Positions 1,168 through 11,783 of a stretch of DNA of 64,000 bases are shown here, piece after piece (position 1 is the first letter of the stretch; every line of letters starts with the position of its first letter). This DNA is from Jiangella mangrovi (lineage in GTDB: Bacteria; Actinomycetota; Actinomycetes; Jiangellales; Jiangellaceae). The translations under genes and the position numbers were made by a program. The notes beneath the pieces were generated by a model that searched no databases, was not told the DNA's origin, and saw only the letters and a list, made by a program, of their open reading frames with translations. Location of the stretch: NCBI RefSeq assembly GCF_014204975.1, contig NZ_JACHMM010000001.1, forward strand, positions 1,736,001-1,800,000. The letters are read 5' to 3'.

Positions 1168-1773
1168 ATGCACCGAAGCACCGGAATCCGGCACCTGCGC
1201 ACCACGCTCGAGCTCTGTGATCGGACGGCTCAGCGGGCCGAGGAGGGTCGCGTGCTGGTGGCGGCCTACGCGTTCGGCCAGATCCTGGAAGACGCCGGCG
1301 ACCTCGACGTCGTGCAGGTTGCGATCGTCCTCGACCTACCCGCAGCACAACTGACCTGGGGCGCCCAGCCCGCGGCGTGCCGATGGCTCCGCTACGTCCT
1401 GGATCTCGGCAGGAACCCGGTGTCGGCTCGGTGGCGACCGGCGGCCTGGCCGGTGTGGAATCACAGGATCCAGCGTCCGCTGCGGCTCTGGTCGGCCGCC
1501 GACGGCATCGACTCGGCGGCACTCGACGCTCTGTCGCGGGGGAAGGCAGAGTCTTTCCGGCTGCCGAGCCCTCCGCACGAAGAGCGGGCCGAGCAGTATC
1601 GGCTCGAGCTGACCGCCTGTCGCGATCACCTGCGTACCGTCCGCGACCACTACTGGGACCGCGACTGGCGACGTGAACACCACGGTGACGGTGACTACCC
1701 CGATCAGCAGCTGTGGAGTGCGACGGATGGCTACCTGGAGATGGTTGACGTCGTCCACAGCCTCGCCGACTAG
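1168..1773 (+). CDS. Conserved actinobacterial hypothetical protein (DUF7711-like)
   Basis: This 201-residue protein has no signal peptide or membrane segment. I chose the ATG at 1168 because a GAGGAGTG site lies just upstream; the same frame is open back to 997. The stretch around residues 30-60 (AYAFGQILE, then DLDVVQVAIVLDLP) has a nucleotidyltransferase-like feel. It is followed by a Trp-rich motif (WPVWNHRIQRPLRLWS) and a C-terminal YWDRDWRREHHG segment. From memory this matches the DUF7711 type of actinobacterial proteins, whose function is unknown. The assignment is by pattern only. It sits alone between the divergent AAA ATPase and the first WYL pair. Confidence 0.7.
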   Translation: MHRSTGIRHLRTTLELCDRTAQRAEEGRVLVAAYAFGQILEDAGDLDVVQVAIVLDLPAAQLTWGAQPAACRWLRYVLDLGRNPVSARWRPAAWPVWNHRIQRPLRLWSAADGIDSAALDALSRGKAESFRLPSPPHEERAEQYRLELTACRDHLRTVRDHYWDRDWRREHHGDGDYPDQQLWSATDGYLEMVDVVHSLAD

Positions 1774-1954
1774 CCTCGGAAGGCGAGGAGCAGCTACACG
1801 AGCCCGCCGCGAACCGTACGGGTCGGTCCACGGACGAACTCCCTGCCGGGTTGCGCGGCGAGCGGCCGGCGACGAGCGTTGCGTCGCCTGCCACGTTCCG
1901 TCCGGGGTGGCGCCTAGGCTGCGGCTCGACCCCGTCGGGCGGCGAAGGGCATGC

Positions 1955-2914
1955 ATGCCAGGAGGACGTGACCAGCTCGGTCCGCTGGAGCGGCTGACCC
2001 GGCTGCTGCTGGTGCTCGAGTCCGCCGAGCCGGCCGGGCTGCCCGCCGCGCGGCTGGTCGCCGTCGGCCGGTACGGCGCCGACTCCGCCTACGACGCGCA
2101 GCGCCAGCTCGCCCGCGACGTCACCGCGCTCACGGCCATCGGCTGGGACATCCGCAACGTCGCCGGGCCGGGCGTCGACGCCGTCTACCGATTGCACGCG
2201 CGCGACACCCGGCTGCGAGTCGAGCTGGCGCCGGAGCACCAGGTCGAGCTGGTCCGGGCGGCGCTCGTCGCCGGCGACGCCGGGTTCCGCGACCGGCTCG
2301 GCGACCTGCCGGAGCCGGGTTCCGACGAGGCCGGCCTCGTCCGCTCGGGGACGCCCGCCTCCGCCGCACCGGACCCGCTCACCGAGGCCGCCTACGCCGT
2401 CGAGCGGCGCTGCCTCATCCATTTCACCTACAAGGGGCGCCCGCGCGTGGTGCGCCCGCAACTGGTCCGCCCCGGCGCGTCGGGCTGGTACCTGTACGGC
2501 CACGAGATCGGGTCGGCCGACACCAAGTGGTTCGTCACCGACCGCATGTCCGACGTGTCGCTCGACCCACCCGGCACCGTCGGCCCGCTCCGCGACGTCA
2601 CGGCCGACCAGCTCAACCCCATCACGTGGAACCGCGACCCGCGCGTCGACGTCACCGTCGAGACCACGGCCGAGCACGAGCCGCAGGTCGCGACCATGCT
2701 GGGCACGCCGTCGGCTCGCAACGTTGTCTTTGGAGACGGCGACGACGACGACGGCGTGCGGCTGACCGTGCCGGTCACCAATCGCGCGGCGTTCCGGGCC
2801 CGCCTCTACGAGCTCGGCCGCCGAGCCCGTGTCGTCGCGCCGCCCGAGGTCGTCGCCGAGATCGTCGCCGAGCTGCGCCGGTTCGTCGGCCCGACCGCTC
2901 CGGAACGACGGTGA
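1955..2914 (+). CDS. WYL-domain transcriptional regulator (PafB-like member of pair 1)
   Basis: This 319-residue protein has an N-terminal winged helix (about residues 1-65), a linker and a WYL domain (about 140-215, including the WYLYGHE core and a TDRMSDV segment). A C-terminal WCX-like extension follows. The start at 1955 is chosen because its paralog at 9843 begins with nearly the same residues (GGRDQLGPLERxTR). The family comprises DNA-binding regulators whose WYL domain senses a ligand or nucleic acid; PafB/PafC pairs activate DNA-damage genes. It is followed 19 bp later by a second WYL gene, so the two probably act as a heterodimer. Whether these are true PafBC orthologs is uncertain. 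Confidence 0.85.
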   Translation: MPGGRDQLGPLERLTRLLLVLESAEPAGLPAARLVAVGRYGADSAYDAQRQLARDVTALTAIGWDIRNVAGPGVDAVYRLHARDTRLRVELAPEHQVELVRAALVAGDAGFRDRLGDLPEPGSDEAGLVRSGTPASAAPDPLTEAAYAVERRCLIHFTYKGRPRVVRPQLVRPGASGWYLYGHEIGSADTKWFVTDRMSDVSLDPPGTVGPLRDVTADQLNPITWNRDPRVDVTVETTAEHEPQVATMLGTPSARNVVFGDGDDDDGVRLTVPVTNRAAFRARLYELGRRARVVAPPEVVAEIVAELRRFVGPTAPERR

Positions 2915-2933
2915 TCCCCATGGTGAGCCCGGC

Positions 2934-3929
2934 ATGAGCACGCCGCAGTACGTCCGCCGGTTCGACCGCGTCACCCGGGCGCTCAATGAGCTGTCCCTGC
3001 ACGCCGGCGGCCTGCCCATCGCGGCCCTCGCCGAGCAGCTGGGGACCGACGCCGCGACGCTTCGGGCGGAGCTGCGCGCCTACTTCCGCGCCGACGTCGA
3101 CCCCGCCTTCAGCCCGAACGCGATCCGGCAGACCAGCATCCGCTTCCACGACGCCGACGGCGCCGACGTCGAGCCGACGGACGCGGAGTTCGTGTCTGCC
3201 TCGCCGCGGCCCACCGAGGAGATCGGCGCCGACTACGTCACCGTCGGCGAACTGGCCCGCATCTACCGCGCGGGACAGGACCTGCTCGCGGTGGAGCCCG
3301 GGAACTCCGCTCTGGAGGGCGCCCTCAACGCGCTGACGGCGACCGTGCTGGCCGGCCTCGGGACCGGTGTGTCCGGCCGGACCGCCTGGCTGGGCGACCT
3401 CGTGGCGTCCGTCGGCGACGCCCTGCGCTCGCGGCGGCGGATGTCGCTCACCTACGCCCGGGCCTGGCAGCCCGGCGTCCGCACCCACGTCGTCGAGCCG
3501 TACCGCCTGGTCAAGACCCGCCGTGGCTGGGAGCTCGACGCCGGCTTCGTCGAGGACGGCGCCTTCGACGGGCGGGTCGGCACCTTCCTGCTGTCGGGCG
3601 TGCGATCGGCGACGGTGCTGGCGGCCGGCTTCGACCGCCCCGCCAACGCGGACGACCTGATCGCCGCCAACCGCCGCACCGCCGCCGTCGACCTCGTCAC
3701 CCCTCAGGACAGCCGCTGGGTGGTCGACCGCTTCTCCGAGTCCGTCGAGGTGCTGGGCGCCGACGAGGACATGATCCGCATGCGGGCCCACCTCCTGCCC
3801 CCGGTCGAGCAGCGGCTCGGGCTGCTGCTCCTCGTCGCTGGGCCGGACACCTGGGTCAACTCCCCGACGGGGCTCAGGGACGCCGGCACCGATCTCGCCC
3901 GCGACCTCCTCGCCCACTACACGGACTGA
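2934..3929 (+). CDS. WYL-domain transcriptional regulator (PafC-like member of pair 1)
   Basis: This 331-residue protein begins at the ATG at 2934 (MSTPQYVRRFDRV), with an N-terminal helix-turn-helix-like region at about 10-60. The WYL-type core lies at about 155-225, where the canonical W-Y-L is degenerate (RRGWELDAGFVED). A C-terminal WCX-like domain follows (PQDSRWVVDRFSESVEVLG near 265). It lies 19 bp after its partner at 1955 and is surely co-transcribed. The end overlaps the convergent Nudix gene by 13 bp. Its closest relative in the window is the gene at 10758, so the two pairs arose by duplication or repeated acquisition. Confidence 0.82.
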   Translation: MSTPQYVRRFDRVTRALNELSLHAGGLPIAALAEQLGTDAATLRAELRAYFRADVDPAFSPNAIRQTSIRFHDADGADVEPTDAEFVSASPRPTEEIGADYVTVGELARIYRAGQDLLAVEPGNSALEGALNALTATVLAGLGTGVSGRTAWLGDLVASVGDALRSRRRMSLTYARAWQPGVRTHVVEPYRLVKTRRGWELDAGFVEDGAFDGRVGTFLLSGVRSATVLAAGFDRPANADDLIAANRRTAAVDLVTPQDSRWVVDRFSESVEVLGADEDMIRMRAHLLPPVEQRLGLLLLVAGPDTWVNSPTGLRDAGTDLARDLLAHYTD

Positions 3930-4333
3930 CTCCGAGCCAGTTGTTGCGCGAGCGGCACCAGCTCGGGCGGCCGCAGGTCGATCGTGTGCAGCAGGTCGAC
4001 GGGGACGTGGTCGACGAGGTGGCCGGCGGTGAGCTCGGGGCCGCAGCGCAACGACGGGTCCATCGTCAGCAGCTGGGCGAGGAAGACGTGCTGGCGAGTC
4101 GGGTGCTCAGTGGTCGGCTCGACGACGTGGACCCGGCCGAGCACCTGCGCCGTCGCGCCGAGCTCCTCCATGAGCTCTCGGTGCAGCGCCGCCTCGAGCG
4201 AGTCGTCCGACGGCTCGAGCTTGCCGCCCGGTGTCGTCCAGTACGGCCCCCGTCCCGGCCGCACCCGTTTGATCAGCACCAGCCGGCCGCCGTCGTCGAA
4301 GAGGAGGGCCCGGGCCGATCGCACCGCCGTCAT
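3917..4333 (-). CDS. NUDIX hydrolase
   Basis: This 138-residue protein starts at the ATG at 4333. Nudix enzymes hydrolyse nucleoside diphosphates linked to another moiety, using a metal held by the Nudix box. The box is visible as GGKLEPSDDSLEAALHRELM followed by EELGA at about residues 38-62; it keeps the REL-x-EE-x-G core. There is one extra residue between the leading glycine and the RE pair, and Asp replaces the first Glu. The substrate cannot be inferred. The 3' end overlaps the WYL gene ending at 3929, and the start is 40 bp from the divergent OGG-fold gene at 4373. Confidence 0.88.
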   Translation of the reverse strand: MTAVRSARALLFDDGGRLVLIKRVRPGRGPYWTTPGGKLEPSDDSLEAALHRELMEELGATAQVLGRVHVVEPTTEHPTRQHVFLAQLLTMDPSLRCGPELTAGHLVDHVPVDLLHTIDLRPPELVPLAQQLARSQSV

Positions 4334-4372: not shown

Positions 4373-5122
4373 ATGAGCATGCCGCCGCCGGTGTTGCGCG
4401 ACCTTCTCGACCGGTACGCCGGCGTCGAGCAGAAGCCCGTGCGCATCCGGCCCAGCACGTGGCAGAACGCCCTCATCCGCGTCCCTGAGTCGCTCGAGGT
4501 GACGTCGCTGCTGACGCACCGGCGCTTCACCCGCGCCGTTCCGGGGTCGAAGACGCACGACCGCACCATCGGCCGCGACGGCGTGCGCGCGGCCTGCGCC
4601 GCCCTCAACGTCGACGACACCAAGGAGGTGCTCCGGACGTTCGTGCTGGTCATGGCGTGGGGCTCCGGGCTGGTGGGCGGCCGCAACCAGGCCAACACCG
4701 CGAAGGCCGTCCTCGACCCCGGTCGAGCGTTCCGCGTGCTCAGCGACTCCGCCAAGGTCCTGCGCCACGCCGCCGGCTTCCACGACGGCGCGCTGGAAGA
4801 GGTGCACCGCTGGTGGTCGCTCCCAGGCGTCGGGCAGTCGTTCGCGAGCAAGTGGTGGGCCTTCGCCGGCCACACCGCCGGGCGCGAGTGGCAGCCGCTC
4901 ATCCTCGACAGCCGGGTCTACGCCACGCTCAACGACACCCTGCGCATCGGCGGGACCACCCGGCTGGCCGGCTCGCGCCGCCGGGCCGACCGCTACCGCG
5001 CCTACGTCGAGACCGTCCACCGCTGGGCGCTCGAGTTCCAGATGTCCGGCCTCGACATCGACGCCGAGCGCATCGAGTTCGTGCTGTTCCACCACAACGG
5101 AGGCGCCCCACCCAGCCGCTGA
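4373..5122 (+). CDS. HhH-GPD/OGG-fold protein, copy 1
   Basis: This 249-residue protein has no signal or membrane segment. Around residues 145-185 it carries SLPGVGQSFASKWWAFAG followed by a conserved ILDSRVYATL. LPGVG is the hairpin of helix-hairpin-helix DNA glycosylases, and the Asp in LDSRV sits where OGG1-type enzymes carry the catalytic Asp (PVDVHV). The RRADRYRAYVE segment resembles the last helix of that fold. This matches the poorly studied actinobacterial 8-oxoguanine-glycosylase-OGG-fold family. Activity is unproven, because the Lys of the K-x-G...D pair is not clearly in place. A tandem paralog follows 71 bp later. An alternative start is the ATG at 4379. Confidence 0.7.
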   Translation: MSMPPPVLRDLLDRYAGVEQKPVRIRPSTWQNALIRVPESLEVTSLLTHRRFTRAVPGSKTHDRTIGRDGVRAACAALNVDDTKEVLRTFVLVMAWGSGLVGGRNQANTAKAVLDPGRAFRVLSDSAKVLRHAAGFHDGALEEVHRWWSLPGVGQSFASKWWAFAGHTAGREWQPLILDSRVYATLNDTLRIGGTTRLAGSRRRADRYRAYVETVHRWALEFQMSGLDIDAERIEFVLFHHNGGAPPSR

Positions 5123-5193
5123 ATTCGGAGGCCATCATTCGGCGCCAGGCGTAATGTCCTGATTGCACACATCCGCGGCCCACGGGGGACGCC

Positions 5194-5961
5194 ATGGCGC
5201 GCATCGTCAGCACCGCGCTGCCCGCCGCCCTTCCGGCGCTCATCGACAAGTATCGCGACGTCCAGCCGAGGCCGGTGCGGTTCCGGCCGGCGACGTGGAA
5301 GGGCGTGCTCTACCACGCGCCGGCCGGGCTCGACATCACAGCGTTGCTGCGCAGCCGGCAGTACACCGCGCCGCTCGCGGAGTCGAAGGCCAAGGACCGC
5401 ACCGTCACGCTCGCCGACGTGCGGGCGGCCTGCCGGGCCATGGACGTCGCCGACGAGCGCGAGGTGCTGCAGGCGTTCGTCCTGACCATGGCCTGGGCGT
5501 CGGAAGGCGCGGCGGCCAACCCGACGCTGCGGGCGACGGCGCGAGCCCTCACCGATCCCGGCCGCGCGCACCGGATCCTGAGCGACGCCGTCCGCACGCT
5601 CCGGTCGGCCCAGAGCATCCAGGACGGGAGCCTCGAGGCCGCCCACCGGGCGTGGACGCTGCGTGGCGTCGGCCAGTCGCAGGCGAGCCGGTGGTGGGCC
5701 TGCGCGGGCTACGTCGCCGGCCGCACCTGGCAGCCGCTGGTCCTCGACGACCGGGTGTACGCGACGTTGAACAGAACTCTCATGATCGGCGGGACGACCC
5801 GGCTGGCGAGCTCGCGGCGCCGCGCGGACCGCTACCGCGCCTACGTCGAGGCGATCCACCGCTGGGCCGTTGAGCTGCGGCTCGAGGGCCGCGACGCCGA
5901 CGCCGAGCGCATCGCGTTCGTGCTCGGCCGGCACGACGGCGGAGCGGTCCCGACACCCTGA
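5194..5961 (+). CDS. HhH-GPD/OGG-fold protein, copy 2
   Basis: This 255-residue protein is collinear with the gene at 4373 over its whole length. Shared blocks include the opening DKYRDVQxRPVRFRPxTWK, the middle VLQAFVLTMAW, and the C-terminal VYATLNxTLxIGGTTRLA then SRRRADRYRAYVE. The hairpin here is LRGVGQSQASRWWACAG, so the Pro of LPGVG is replaced and the following Lys (SKWW) is Arg. The putative catalytic Asp is kept in VLDDRVYATL. The start ATG at 5194 follows a GGGGGA-type ribosome site. The two copies probably arose by tandem duplication and diverged, and one may have lost catalysis. The function remains unknown. Confidence 0.68.
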   Translation: MARIVSTALPAALPALIDKYRDVQPRPVRFRPATWKGVLYHAPAGLDITALLRSRQYTAPLAESKAKDRTVTLADVRAACRAMDVADEREVLQAFVLTMAWASEGAAANPTLRATARALTDPGRAHRILSDAVRTLRSAQSIQDGSLEAAHRAWTLRGVGQSQASRWWACAGYVAGRTWQPLVLDDRVYATLNRTLMIGGTTRLASSRRRADRYRAYVEAIHRWAVELRLEGRDADAERIAFVLGRHDGGAVPTP

Positions 5962-7989: not shown

Positions 7990-9126
7990 GTGGCGCTGCC
8001 GAGCTCGACCGACCGCGGTGAGCTGCGATCGGCCGTCGAAGGCCTGCTGCGCACCTGTGTGGAAGTGGAACGCGGCACGGCCGACATGGTGGCGCGGATC
8101 GAGCAGCGGGTGCGCCGGGTGACGGGCGAGCTCGCGGCGGTCCGGCTGCCGGCGCACGTCATCGACGTGGCCGCCCTCGCCCAGGAGGTCGACGGCGTCG
8201 GGCGCGGGCTGGGCGGCGATCTCGACGGCCTGCTGGCCGAGGCGCGGCAGCCGTACGTGACGCAGATCCACGCCCTGCTCGCGCTGCTGGCGCCGCTGCA
8301 CGGCCTCGGGCCCGTCGCGCCGCTCACCCCCGTCGCCCCGGCCACGAGCCTCGACGGATTGTTCCCCGACGGGTTCGCCCGCGAGTACGTGGCCGACCTG
8401 CTCGCCGGCGTCCACCGCGGCGCCACCCTTACCCGCGACGACGCCACCGGCGTCGCGACGGTCCTCCAGCGCGACGCCGACGAGGCGATCGCCGCCTCCC
8501 GAGCTGGCTTCACCGACGACCATCGGTCAGGCGGCGTCGAGTTGCTCGCCGCCGACGAGTGCCACGCGGTCGAGCAGCACGGGCCGCAGATCCCCGACCA
8601 GGCCCAGCTGGCGCGGCTGCTCTGGCTCAAGGACCCCACCGGCGAGTGGCCGTGGCACGTCGACCCGTCGGGAGCTGTCGTCACAGAGCACTGGTCCGGC
8701 CCGGCGACCGGCGGCTTCACCTCCCCCGAGGCGATGGCGAAGCCGCTACAAGCACTGTTGGAGCACGCACGTACCGCCGCCGGCGGCCTGGACGCGTATC
8801 TCACCGACAACACGGACGACGAGACCAAGGTCGCGCTGCACATCTCAGCCGAGCAGGCCGATCTGAGAGCCGGCGACGCCTTCGGGTACCGGGCCGCCGG
8901 CGCCGGCACCAAGACGACGAGACGTGATTGGCTCGCCGCGCGAAAGTACGCCATGCGCCGGGGCCACGGGCAGGTCTATGGCGTGCCCGACGACCCGATC
9001 GCCAGCGGCGACGATCCGGGAGCGACGATCATCTTGACGAGAACGGGGAACGGGTGGCGGCTGACCACCTGCTATCCGGTGGACCGGCAGAGACCCTCGA
9101 CCATACGCCTGGAGGACTTCGGATGA
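7990..9126 (+). CDS. Probable polymorphic toxin with C-terminal RNase A-like (CdiA-CT type) domain
   Basis: This 378-residue protein has a GTG start at 7990. Residues 1-105 are predicted helical, then come a Pro/Val linker (108-120) and a second helical part. The last 155 residues (about 220-372) follow the layout of bacterial RNase A-like contact-inhibition toxins. An early His lies in WHVDPSGAVVTEHW (223). A GGFTSPEAMAKPLQALLEHA helix is followed by a DAYL turn, a KVALHI strand and an AFGYRA segment. The terminal ATIILTRTGNGWRLTTCYPV strand carries the T-x-Y signature (360-362). Family toxins cut tRNA or other RNA. No secretion signal is visible. The gene ends in an ATGA overlap with the next, as in toxin-immunity pairs. 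Confidence 0.6.
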   Translation: MALPSSTDRGELRSAVEGLLRTCVEVERGTADMVARIEQRVRRVTGELAAVRLPAHVIDVAALAQEVDGVGRGLGGDLDGLLAEARQPYVTQIHALLALLAPLHGLGPVAPLTPVAPATSLDGLFPDGFAREYVADLLAGVHRGATLTRDDATGVATVLQRDADEAIAASRAGFTDDHRSGGVELLAADECHAVEQHGPQIPDQAQLARLLWLKDPTGEWPWHVDPSGAVVTEHWSGPATGGFTSPEAMAKPLQALLEHARTAAGGLDAYLTDNTDDETKVALHISAEQADLRAGDAFGYRAAGAGTKTTRRDWLAARKYAMRRGHGQVYGVPDDPIASGDDPGATIILTRTGNGWRLTTCYPVDRQRPSTIRLEDFG

Positions 9127-9665
9127 TCCCCTGGAGCAGGAGGTTCCAACTGATCTTCGGCGGCGGATTCGCGCTGGCGGACGATGAGCCGGCCCTGTAC
9201 ATCGAGGCTGTCGAGGAGGCGCCCGTGCGTCTGGCCAACGACGCGTCCGGGAGCTACCACGCCTTCCGTGAGGAGTTCGCCGTCCATATCCGGGAGTCGT
9301 CCTTCCCTCCGGAGTCGGAGGCCGAGTCGCAGTGGATGACCGACGAGTGGCTGCGCGACGTCTGGTACGACGCCTTCGGACCCGAGCCCGCCCCCGGCGA
9401 CCCCTTCCCCGTGCCTCAGGAGGACTGGGGTCACAGTCGGCTGACCGACTACATGCTGCACGCGATCAACCAGACGCTGGAGACCAGCGCCCCCGGCGCG
9501 GCGGAGTGGCTGGCGGCTCGGGGCCTGACGGTCGAGGACATCGGCGCGGCCGTCGACCGGTCCCCCACACAGTCGGTCGGGTTCCGGTCGGCGCCGGAGG
9601 GATGGCTGGACCATCTGCACGACCTGACGGCTCGCGGCCTGCGCGAAGCACAGCCGGGCGAGTGA
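9123..9665 (+). CDS. Putative immunity protein for the upstream toxin
   Basis: The ATG at 9123 overlaps the toxin stop codon (ATGA), so translation is probably coupled. The 180-residue product is acidic (many Asp/Glu, with EAVEEAP, EREEFAV-like and ESEAESQW stretches). It has no signal peptide or membrane helix, as expected for a cytoplasmic antidote that binds a basic RNase. I do not recognise a named immunity family. The call rests on position, coupling, size and charge rather than homology. The gene is followed by a 177-bp AT-richer gap before the second WYL pair. Confidence 0.5.
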   Translation: MIPWSRRFQLIFGGGFALADDEPALYIEAVEEAPVRLANDASGSYHAFREEFAVHIRESSFPPESEAESQWMTDEWLRDVWYDAFGPEPAPGDPFPVPQEDWGHSRLTDYMLHAINQTLETSAPGAAEWLAARGLTVEDIGAAVDRSPTQSVGFRSAPEGWLDHLHDLTARGLREAQPGE

Positions 9666-9842
9666 ATAGTTCATTAGGTGAAACCGTCACCACCTTGTGC
9701 CTATCGAAACCTCCGTGGCTAACCGGCATTTGGGGCAATACACCGGAGTAATTCGACCCAAAATGAGAAATGACGAACTACTCTGGCCTTTCACATGACA
9801 CGGGCATAGCATGATCGTCCGATGTTGCTGTGGAGGGGCGCC
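9666..9842 (+). promoter_or_regulatory. AT-richer promoter region of the second WYL pair
   Basis: This gap is visibly poorer in G+C than its surroundings. It contains a short hairpin GGTGA-AACCG-TCACC (9677-9691) just after the putative immunity gene, which could be a weak terminator. A ribosome site GGAGGGG at about 9832-9838 fixes the start of the next gene at 9843. No convincing -35/-10 pair was found, although CATAGCATGAT near 9805-9815 could hold a -10 element. Confidence 0.35.
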
Positions 9843-10754
9843 ATGGCTGGAGGACGGGACCAACTCGGTCCATTGGAACGGGTGACCCGAGTGCTGGTCG
9901 CGCTGGTCGCGGCCGAGCCCAAGGGGATCCCGACGCCGCGACTGCTGAAGATCGCGGCGTTCGGTGGGGGAGAAGAGCATCATGTACGACAGTTGAAGCG
10001 GCTGATCGAAGATCTCAACGCGGCCGGGTGGAACATCCGCAACACCGCGCCACCCGGGCAGACCGCGGTCTATCGCGCGTTCGCCGGCGACAATCGGCTC
10101 CGGCTGACATTGACTCCGGCTCAGCAGGCCGAACTGGCCCGCGCCGCGCTCATTGCCGGCGACGCCGAGTTCGCCGAGCGCGCCGGCATCGAGGGCACCC
10201 GCGCCGAGCCGATCCCGGAGCTGCGCACGGCGCAGAACGCGCAGCGCGACGATGCCCTCGACAAGGTGCTGTACGCGCTGGAGCGACGGTGCCGGCTGCG
10301 GTTCGTCTACAAGCAGCGGCTCCGCGTCGTGCATCCGCACTTCGTCTATCCGGGCACGTCGGGCTGGCACCTGGTCGGCCATGAGGACGGCAGCGAGAAG
10401 GACAAGCAGTTCGTCACCGATCGCATGTCCGCCGTCCGCGTCGACCTGCCGCGCACCGCGGACCCGCGGCACGAGCCGTACCGCGATGAGCTCGACCCGC
10501 TGACCTGGGGGGTCGACGAGCCGGTCGACGTCACCGTCGAGACGACCCCGGCGCACCGCAACCAGGTCGAGACGCTGCTGGGCACGCCGTCGTACCGCGA
10601 GGTCGACGACGACGTGGTCCGGCTGACGATCCGGGTGACGCACCGGTCGGCGTTCCGCAACCGCGTCTACGAACTCGGCCCGCGCGTCCGCGTGCTCGGG
10701 CCCGAGAGCATCCGCAGCGAGCTCCTCACGGAGCTGGAATCCCTCCTGGACTGA
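9843..10754 (+). CDS. WYL-domain transcriptional regulator (PafB-like member of pair 2)
   Basis: This 303-residue paralog of the gene at 1955 shares the opening GGRDQLGPLERVTR, the WNIRN motif near residue 60, and the HPHFVYPGTSGWHLVGHED form of the WYL core, where HLV replaces WYL. The TDRMSAV segment and a C-terminal VYELGPRVRVLGPE are also kept. The ATG at 9843 is preferred over an upstream ATG at 9822 because a GGAGGGG site sits at the right distance and the paralog starts identically. It is three bases from its partner's start region (10758), which makes a tight operon. It is likely to work with that partner as a PafBC-like activator, with unknown targets. Confidence 0.85.
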   Translation: MAGGRDQLGPLERVTRVLVALVAAEPKGIPTPRLLKIAAFGGGEEHHVRQLKRLIEDLNAAGWNIRNTAPPGQTAVYRAFAGDNRLRLTLTPAQQAELARAALIAGDAEFAERAGIEGTRAEPIPELRTAQNAQRDDALDKVLYALERRCRLRFVYKQRLRVVHPHFVYPGTSGWHLVGHEDGSEKDKQFVTDRMSAVRVDLPRTADPRHEPYRDELDPLTWGVDEPVDVTVETTPAHRNQVETLLGTPSYREVDDDVVRLTIRVTHRSAFRNRVYELGPRVRVLGPESIRSELLTELESLLD

Positions 10755-10757
10755 CCC

Positions 10758-11783
10758 ATGACGATGACCACGCCCGTGTTCGTCCGCCGTTTCGAGCGGG
10801 TCGCGCACGCGCTCCAGATCCTGACCATGCACCCCGACGGCGTCCCGTTGAGCCGGCTGGCGGCCGAGCTGGACGTCGACGAGCAGACGTTGCGCGACGA
10901 GATCGTGGCGTTCTACTGCGCTGACAGCGCCGCGTTCGATCCCGGCCCGCTGCGGCAGGTGCGCATCGAGTTCCTCGACCGCGACGGCGAGGTCGACGAG
11001 GCCGACCCCGCGGTGGCCGAGCTGGTGCGCGCGTCGACCGAGCGGCCCGCGGCCGAGATCGGCGTGGTGCACACGTCGCCGGCCGAGCTGGCCAACATCT
11101 ATCGCGCCGGGCAGGCCTTGCTGTCGCTGGAGCCCGACAACGACGTGCTCGACGGCGCCCTGCGAGCGCTCGGCGGCACGATGCTGCGGGGCATCCGGCC
11201 GGTCGACGACCACTGGAAGGCCGAACTCGCCGGCCGGCTCGTCGAGGCGATCAAGCAGCGCCGCTGGGTGCGTATCGACTACACGCCCGTGTGGCGCGAC
11301 GACAGCCGCGAGCACCGCATCGCGCCATACCGTCTGCTGCGGACCCGGCGCGGCTGGGAGGTCGACGCCGGTATGTCCGCCGACGGGCGGGTCGTGGGCA
11401 GCTTCCTGCTCACCGGCATCCGCGAGGCGACGGTGCTCGACGAGACCTTCGAGCGCCCGCCCGAGATCGACGACCGGCTGGCGGGCACCCGGTACGAGCA
11501 GCAGGTCGAGCTGGTGGTCCCGCAGGACGCCCGCTGGGTGGTGGACCGGTTCGCCGAGGGCTCGGAGCTCCTGGACGAGGACGCGGAGTCGGTGAAGCTG
11601 CGGGTGCGGCTGCTGCCGCCGGTCGAGCGCCGGCTCGGCATCCTGCTGCTGACCGCCGGACCGGAGGCGTTCGTCACCGACCCGCCGGCGCTGGCCGACG
11701 CCGGACGGCAGGTCGCGCGCGAGTTGTTCGAGCACCACTCGACCATCGCCGGGCCGCTGCCCGGGCCCGAGCGGGGCGCGTGA
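10758..11783 (+). CDS. WYL-domain transcriptional regulator (PafC-like member of pair 2)
   Basis: This 341-residue paralog of the gene at 2934 has an N-terminal HTH-like region (VRRFERVAHALQILTMHPDG), a WYL-type middle part (IDYTPVWRDDSREHRIAPYR) and the C-terminal PQDARWVVDRFAEGSELLDE block. The last 20 residues (GPLPGPERGA end) are an unstructured tail absent from the first copy. It starts 3 bp after the preceding gene and lies 13 bp before an osmC-like gene, so transcription may continue. An alternative start is the ATG at 10764. Confidence 0.82.
   Translation: MTMTTPVFVRRFERVAHALQILTMHPDGVPLSRLAAELDVDEQTLRDEIVAFYCADSAAFDPGPLRQVRIEFLDRDGEVDEADPAVAELVRASTERPAAEIGVVHTSPAELANIYRAGQALLSLEPDNDVLDGALRALGGTMLRGIRPVDDHWKAELAGRLVEAIKQRRWVRIDYTPVWRDDSREHRIAPYRLLRTRRGWEVDAGMSADGRVVGSFLLTGIREATVLDETFERPPEIDDRLAGTRYEQQVELVVPQDARWVVDRFAEGSELLDEDAESVKLRVRLLPPVERRLGILLLTAGPEAFVTDPPALADAGRQVARELFEHHSTIAGPLPGPERGA

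Follow-up and report, generated by a model that had tools for sequence, protein, structure and literature searches.

Do two adjacent glycosylase-like genes of Jiangella mangrovi encode an active enzyme and an inactive companion, or two maintained proteins of the same kind? The genes, called A and B here, lie on the same strand, 71 bases apart, near the start of the analysed stretch of 64,000 nucleotides (the window). An earlier note on this DNA described them as paralogous OGG-fold proteins and proposed that B, in which a proline of the hairpin and the lysine that follows it are missing, might be the non-catalytic member of a pair.

Duplication and losses of a PF21790 gene in Jiangella

Both open reading frames are intact, and the proteins share 57% identity across 245 residues (BLASTP E = 3e-89), so the paralogy is beyond doubt, as the earlier note had held. 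Both match PF21790 over the full length and above its curated gathering cut-off of 27 bits. Pfam names this family "OGG", "Putative 8-oxoguanine DNA glycosylase OGG-like protein". No further PF21790 copy was found in the 7.16-Mb genome, neither A nor B had a match in NCBIfam, PADLOC or PHROGs, and a search of the open-access literature found no published function or activity for a member of the family. The pair is a tandem duplication within a known but uncharacterised family.

Table 1. Features of the gene pair and its neighbours, in window positions
Feature	Position	Strand	Evidence and remarks
OGG-like copy A, 249 aa (PF21790)	4373..5122	+	ATG 4373 to stop ending 5122; Pfam 108 bits, cut-off 27; dN/dS about 0.25 in genus
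Copy A hairpin LPGVGQSFASK, residues 150-160	4820..4852	+	Ser156 at canonical Lys position, Lys160 the family-conserved Lys; alignment of 59 members
Copy A Asp179, proposed catalytic Asp	4907..4909	+	Asp in 58/59 aligned members
OGG-like copy B, 255 aa (PF21790)	5194..5961	+	ATG 5194 to stop ending 5961; Pfam 73 bits; 57% identical to A; dN/dS about 0.28 in genus
Copy B hairpin LRGVGQSQASR, residues 156-166	5659..5691	+	Arg for both Pro and family Lys; alignment
Copy B Asp185, proposed catalytic Asp, kept	5746..5748	+	Alignment
Short HelD/HelR-like ATPase, 608 aa	6118..7944	+	NCBIfam HelR/HelD matches below cut-off; directly downstream of OGG-like gene(s) in 12/12 Jiangella
NUDIX-like protein, divergent from A	3917..4333	-	Named by motif recognition; synteny in 5/12 Jiangella (window genome, G001, G003, G007, G010)

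Jiangella is a genus of soil bacteria, and the history of the pair was followed in 12 of its species genomes, the window genome and 11 others. The locus is present and syntenic in all 12, with the OGG-like gene or genes, the short HelD-like ATPase, a WYL pair and usually an OsmC gene, and among named relatives Jiangella muralis (L003) is the closest, with a protein 82% identical to A. Eight species carry A and B side by side. In G004 only A is present, G002 and G005 each carry a single copy that falls on the B side of the tree, and G011 has B together with a frameshifted A remnant lacking the hairpin. In the tree, the A clade is supported by an SH-aLRT of 100 and the B clade by 98; the copies of G002 and G005 branch as sisters of the B clade (98), and L205, a relative with one copy, falls outside both A and B (98). 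A single duplication, at or close to the root of the Jiangella sampled, and the later loss of A or of B in some species account for this pattern. Since four of the 12 species have one intact copy, A and B are not obligate partners, and the heterodimer suggested earlier is not obligatory. Additional distant PF21790 copies were seen in G011 and G003 at another genomic place common to the two (L058 9395-10075, L059 9456-10133).

Averaged over pairs, dN/dS comes to 0.25 for A (36 pairs); for B it is 0.28 over the nine core copies, or 0.32 when G002 and G005 are included, and so both proteins are maintained; purifying selection acts on both genes, and on B to a similar degree as on A. Thirteen sites are fixed differently between the A and B clades, and the Pro, the Lys and the Asp discussed below are not among them. 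The Jiangella copies stand apart from the family at large by ASK or ASR in place of the FTK of most members, by additional residues close to the N-terminus, and by the tandem duplication itself.

The flanking genes were compared in the same way. A functional tie of the OGG-like genes to the HelD-like gene was considered, but G016 and G018, which belong to the same taxonomic family, have related HelD-like genes and no PF21790 beside them, so the linkage in Jiangella may come from shared descent. Several longer HelD paralogues of the 608-aa protein are present in the window genome. A partnership with the NUDIX (MutT-like) protein as a general feature was rejected, because NUDIX is found at this locus in only five of the 12 species. 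Beyond the ATPase lie two overlapping genes of no recognised family (7990-9126 and 9123-9665; 378 and 180 aa), which are missing from most other Jiangella; in G018 (L288) they are linked to the HelD-like gene and in G016 (L289) they share a contig stretch with it, in both cases with no PF21790 gene present, and both of these genomes have a second copy of the 180-aa protein nearby. Two separate tandem pairs of WYL-domain genes flank the locus (1703-3929 and 9822-11783), an arrangement that we take to resemble PafB/PafC.

The hairpin, the lysine and the aspartate

In OGG1 and Nth, the catalytic lysine directly follows LPGVG-x (LPGVGxK) and is K249 in OGG1. In an alignment of 59 PF21790 members, 20 of them from the Jiangella locus and 39 from elsewhere, no member has Lys at this position when the hairpins are kept in register: A (S156) and B have Ser, the Jiangella copies have Ser or, once, Pro, and the other members have mostly Ala or Ser. 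The lysine that B has lost (K160 in A, R166 in B) is a different one, six residues past the second hairpin glycine. It is kept in 33 of the 39 members outside the Jiangella locus and is Arg in four, while 11 of the 20 Jiangella copies have Arg, one of these being the A copy of G004, and one has Cys. Thus B-type copies have Arg at the family Lys position in all but one case (Cys), and after the hairpin, where the family motif is T/S-K, A keeps S-K and B has S-R. The hairpin glycines themselves vary within PF21790, and the Pro of LPGVG is present in only 12 of the 39 other members; its replacement in B is therefore ordinary.

The aspartate behaves differently from these residues in being nearly invariant. 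It is found after the hairpin in 20/20 Jiangella copies and 38/39 others, and the stretch that leads from hairpin to Asp reads SLPGVGQSFASKWWAFAG...WQPLILD in A and TLRGVGQSQASRWWACAG...WQPLVLD in B. The glycosylase-like hairpin followed by a conserved Asp, reported from the first reading of the DNA, is thereby confirmed in both copies. Its account of the losses in B is right, with one correction: Pro and Lys are indeed both replaced by Arg, but this Lys lies away from the canonical lyase position, where A and B alike have Ser. Judged from the aligned sequences, neither residue lost by B is a canonical catalytic residue.

A second register could be considered. The distance from K160 to the Asp in A is 19 residues, the same as from K249 to D268 in OGG1, and 18 in the Nth proteins read, so that K160 could be aligned to the catalytic Lys by its distance to the Asp, with the hairpin slipping. 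Profile alignment favours the hairpin register, in which the K160-type Lys falls on Cys253 of OGG1. An OGG1 variant in which the lysine was moved to this position (K249C/C253K) kept glycosylase and lost lyase activity (PMC12499884). Whichever register applies, the Asp is all that a monofunctional glycosylase would require, and B keeps it.

Fold and a proposed mechanism

A, B and 18 family members all lacked a direct match to PF00730 (HhH-GPD) at E-values up to 1, and searches of the PDB by sequence with A, B and the family profile returned no relevant chain. In a profile comparison, the family profile scored 24.7 against an actinobacterial MutY profile, the best profile-profile score obtained, at a probability of only 4.75%, whereas 200 column shuffles averaged 12.4 (sd 2.3) and reached at most 23.3, and scores of 9.6-15.3 were seen for seven unrelated local families in the same test. 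In this alignment, hairpin falls on hairpin and Asp on Asp. When subsets were used, the test was weaker: 2/200 shuffles scored as high for the non-Jiangella members and 14/200 for the Jiangella copies alone, the latter not being convincing.

An AlphaFold model of A itself, built from five sequences, was poor (pLDDT 48). A better AlphaFold2 model (pLDDT 78, pTM 0.78) was obtained for L081, a member from a viral contig, from an alignment that also included A and B, the orthologues of both in J. muralis, and L247; the hairpin stretch appears in it as one helix. In a Foldseek search of the PDB, the top seven matches of this model were mouse and human OGG1, MutY and a P. furiosus hypothetical protein, which we believe to be an archaeal 8-oxoG glycosylase, and OGG1 appeared again at ranks 9, 12 and 15. 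The best E-value was 0.52 at a TM of about 0.3, none fell below 0.5 and none is individually significant. Taken together, profile and model give moderate, indirect support for an HhH-GPD-like fold in PF21790. The OGG fold claimed earlier thus comes down to a weak, above-chance similarity to HhH-GPD by profile and by fold, and lacks both a PF00730 match and a significant Foldseek E-value.

With OGG1 and archaeal OGG/AGOG, which provide the top Foldseek matches of the family model, PF21790 shares a hairpin-like GxG followed by a conserved Asp; unlike them, it has no Lys at the K249 position and no sequence match to them. Compared with Nth, its loop from the hairpin helix to the Asp is about 5 residues longer. 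MutY and AlkA likewise have the Asp without a catalytic Lys, and MutY gives the best profile-profile score, but A and B (249-255 aa) have no recognised FeS cluster or C-terminal NUDIX-like domain, and their identity to these enzymes is very low.

Based on these comparisons, we infer, with a probability of about 0.55, that A and B are duplicated, probably monofunctional DNA-glycosylase-like proteins with an HhH-GPD-type fold. In the proposed mechanism, the helix-hairpin-helix would hold the DNA, and the pocket would take up a flipped-out base that is modified or damaged; the conserved Asp would then activate water or stabilise the sugar cation, so that the glycosidic bond is broken. Since no Lys is present at the canonical position, A and B would be monofunctional, leaving an abasic site and an uncut strand as MutY or AlkA does. 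The conserved Lys (K160 in A), one helical turn further and at the OGG1 Cys253 position, may shape the pocket without forming a Schiff base. B would then be no dead subunit but a copy that has diverged while being maintained, its base preference or its regulation probably changed. A narrower version, in which the Lys of an HhH-GPD-like PF21790 is naturally one turn off as in OGG1 K249C/C253K and the Jiangella copies A and B have split their substrates through the Lys-to-Arg change at that pocket position, seems unlikely.

Alternative readings and significance

The proposal from which this analysis started, that A is an active glycosylase and B a non-catalytic partner binding DNA or A, draws on the Arg or Cys of B-type copies at a position where most other members keep Lys, on the adjacency of the two genes in eight species, and on the register by Asp distance, under which K160 would be the catalytic Lys. 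It is set against the retention of the Asp in every B copy, the variability of the Pro across the family, the Arg of the G004 A copy in a genome without B, and the upkeep of B without an intact A in G002, G005 and G011; profile alignment moreover backs the hairpin register, and a monofunctional glycosylase requires no Lys. The dN/dS of B is similar to that of A; neither conservation nor selection nor gene content speaks for the split, and such a pair is decidedly improbable. It is quite unlikely, too, that the OGG label is wrong and PF21790 has another all-helical fold, the LPGVG motif of A being a coincidence. The missing direct sequence matches to HhH-GPD and the PDB, the insignificant Foldseek E-values and the variable hairpin glycines would agree with such a fold, but the profile score lies above the shuffles with hairpin and Asp in register, and HhH-GPD chains are concentrated at the top of the structure search.

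A role in defence is a tenable but doubtful alternative, in which PF21790 would be a nucleic-acid-base enzyme or reader of restriction and phage-defence islands, aimed at modified phage bases, rather than a DNA repair glycosylase. Glycosylases can act in antiviral defence, as found for Brig1 and Brig3 (PMC11078745, PMC13160076), and base excision in a defence setting would be a possible functional analogy. The fold would differ, as that of Brig3 is alpha/beta and AAG-like, with Brig1 modelled alike (PMC13160076), in contrast to the all-helical model of PF21790. Outside Jiangella the family is patchy, being found in 16/397 genomes across the phylum; in the class sample it occurs in 45/395 genomes, the 12 Jiangella included. 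Some members lie near HsdM (L074), a PD-(D/E)XK nuclease and an Eco57I methylase (L281), GmrSD-HNH (L072), an integrase (L279), or a transposase and a KAP NTPase (L285). However, the genes directly beside PF21790 members are mostly unrelated ones, none of the neighbouring families turns up at more than two independent loci once close relatives are set aside, and the Jiangella locus, fixed with conserved synteny in all 12 species, looks more like a core gene.

Searches of phages and PHROGs for PF21790 relatives gave no useful match, plasmid searches gave one significant match only, a partial one on a Rhodococcus plasmid, and scans of viral contigs gave two relatives, L081/L158 and L247. A UDG-superfamily gene was seen directly upstream of the PF21790 gene in two settings, L081/L286 (4185-4805 and 5004-5684 in L081) and L285 (6222-7307 and 7205-7963), a neighbour that counts for the glycosylase reading as well as for a role in defence. 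The restriction, mobile and UDG neighbours of PF21790 members are a lead only. In another relative (L246, genome G640), the PF21790 gene is in two pieces with an in-frame stop, which suggests that the family is decaying in certain lineages.

In the Jiangella duplication, near relatives that differ in having Lys or Arg at this position occur next to each other, which makes the locus a compact natural test of the role of the conserved Lys. Should A and B prove to excise bases, bacterial repair or defence would gain a further glycosylase family.
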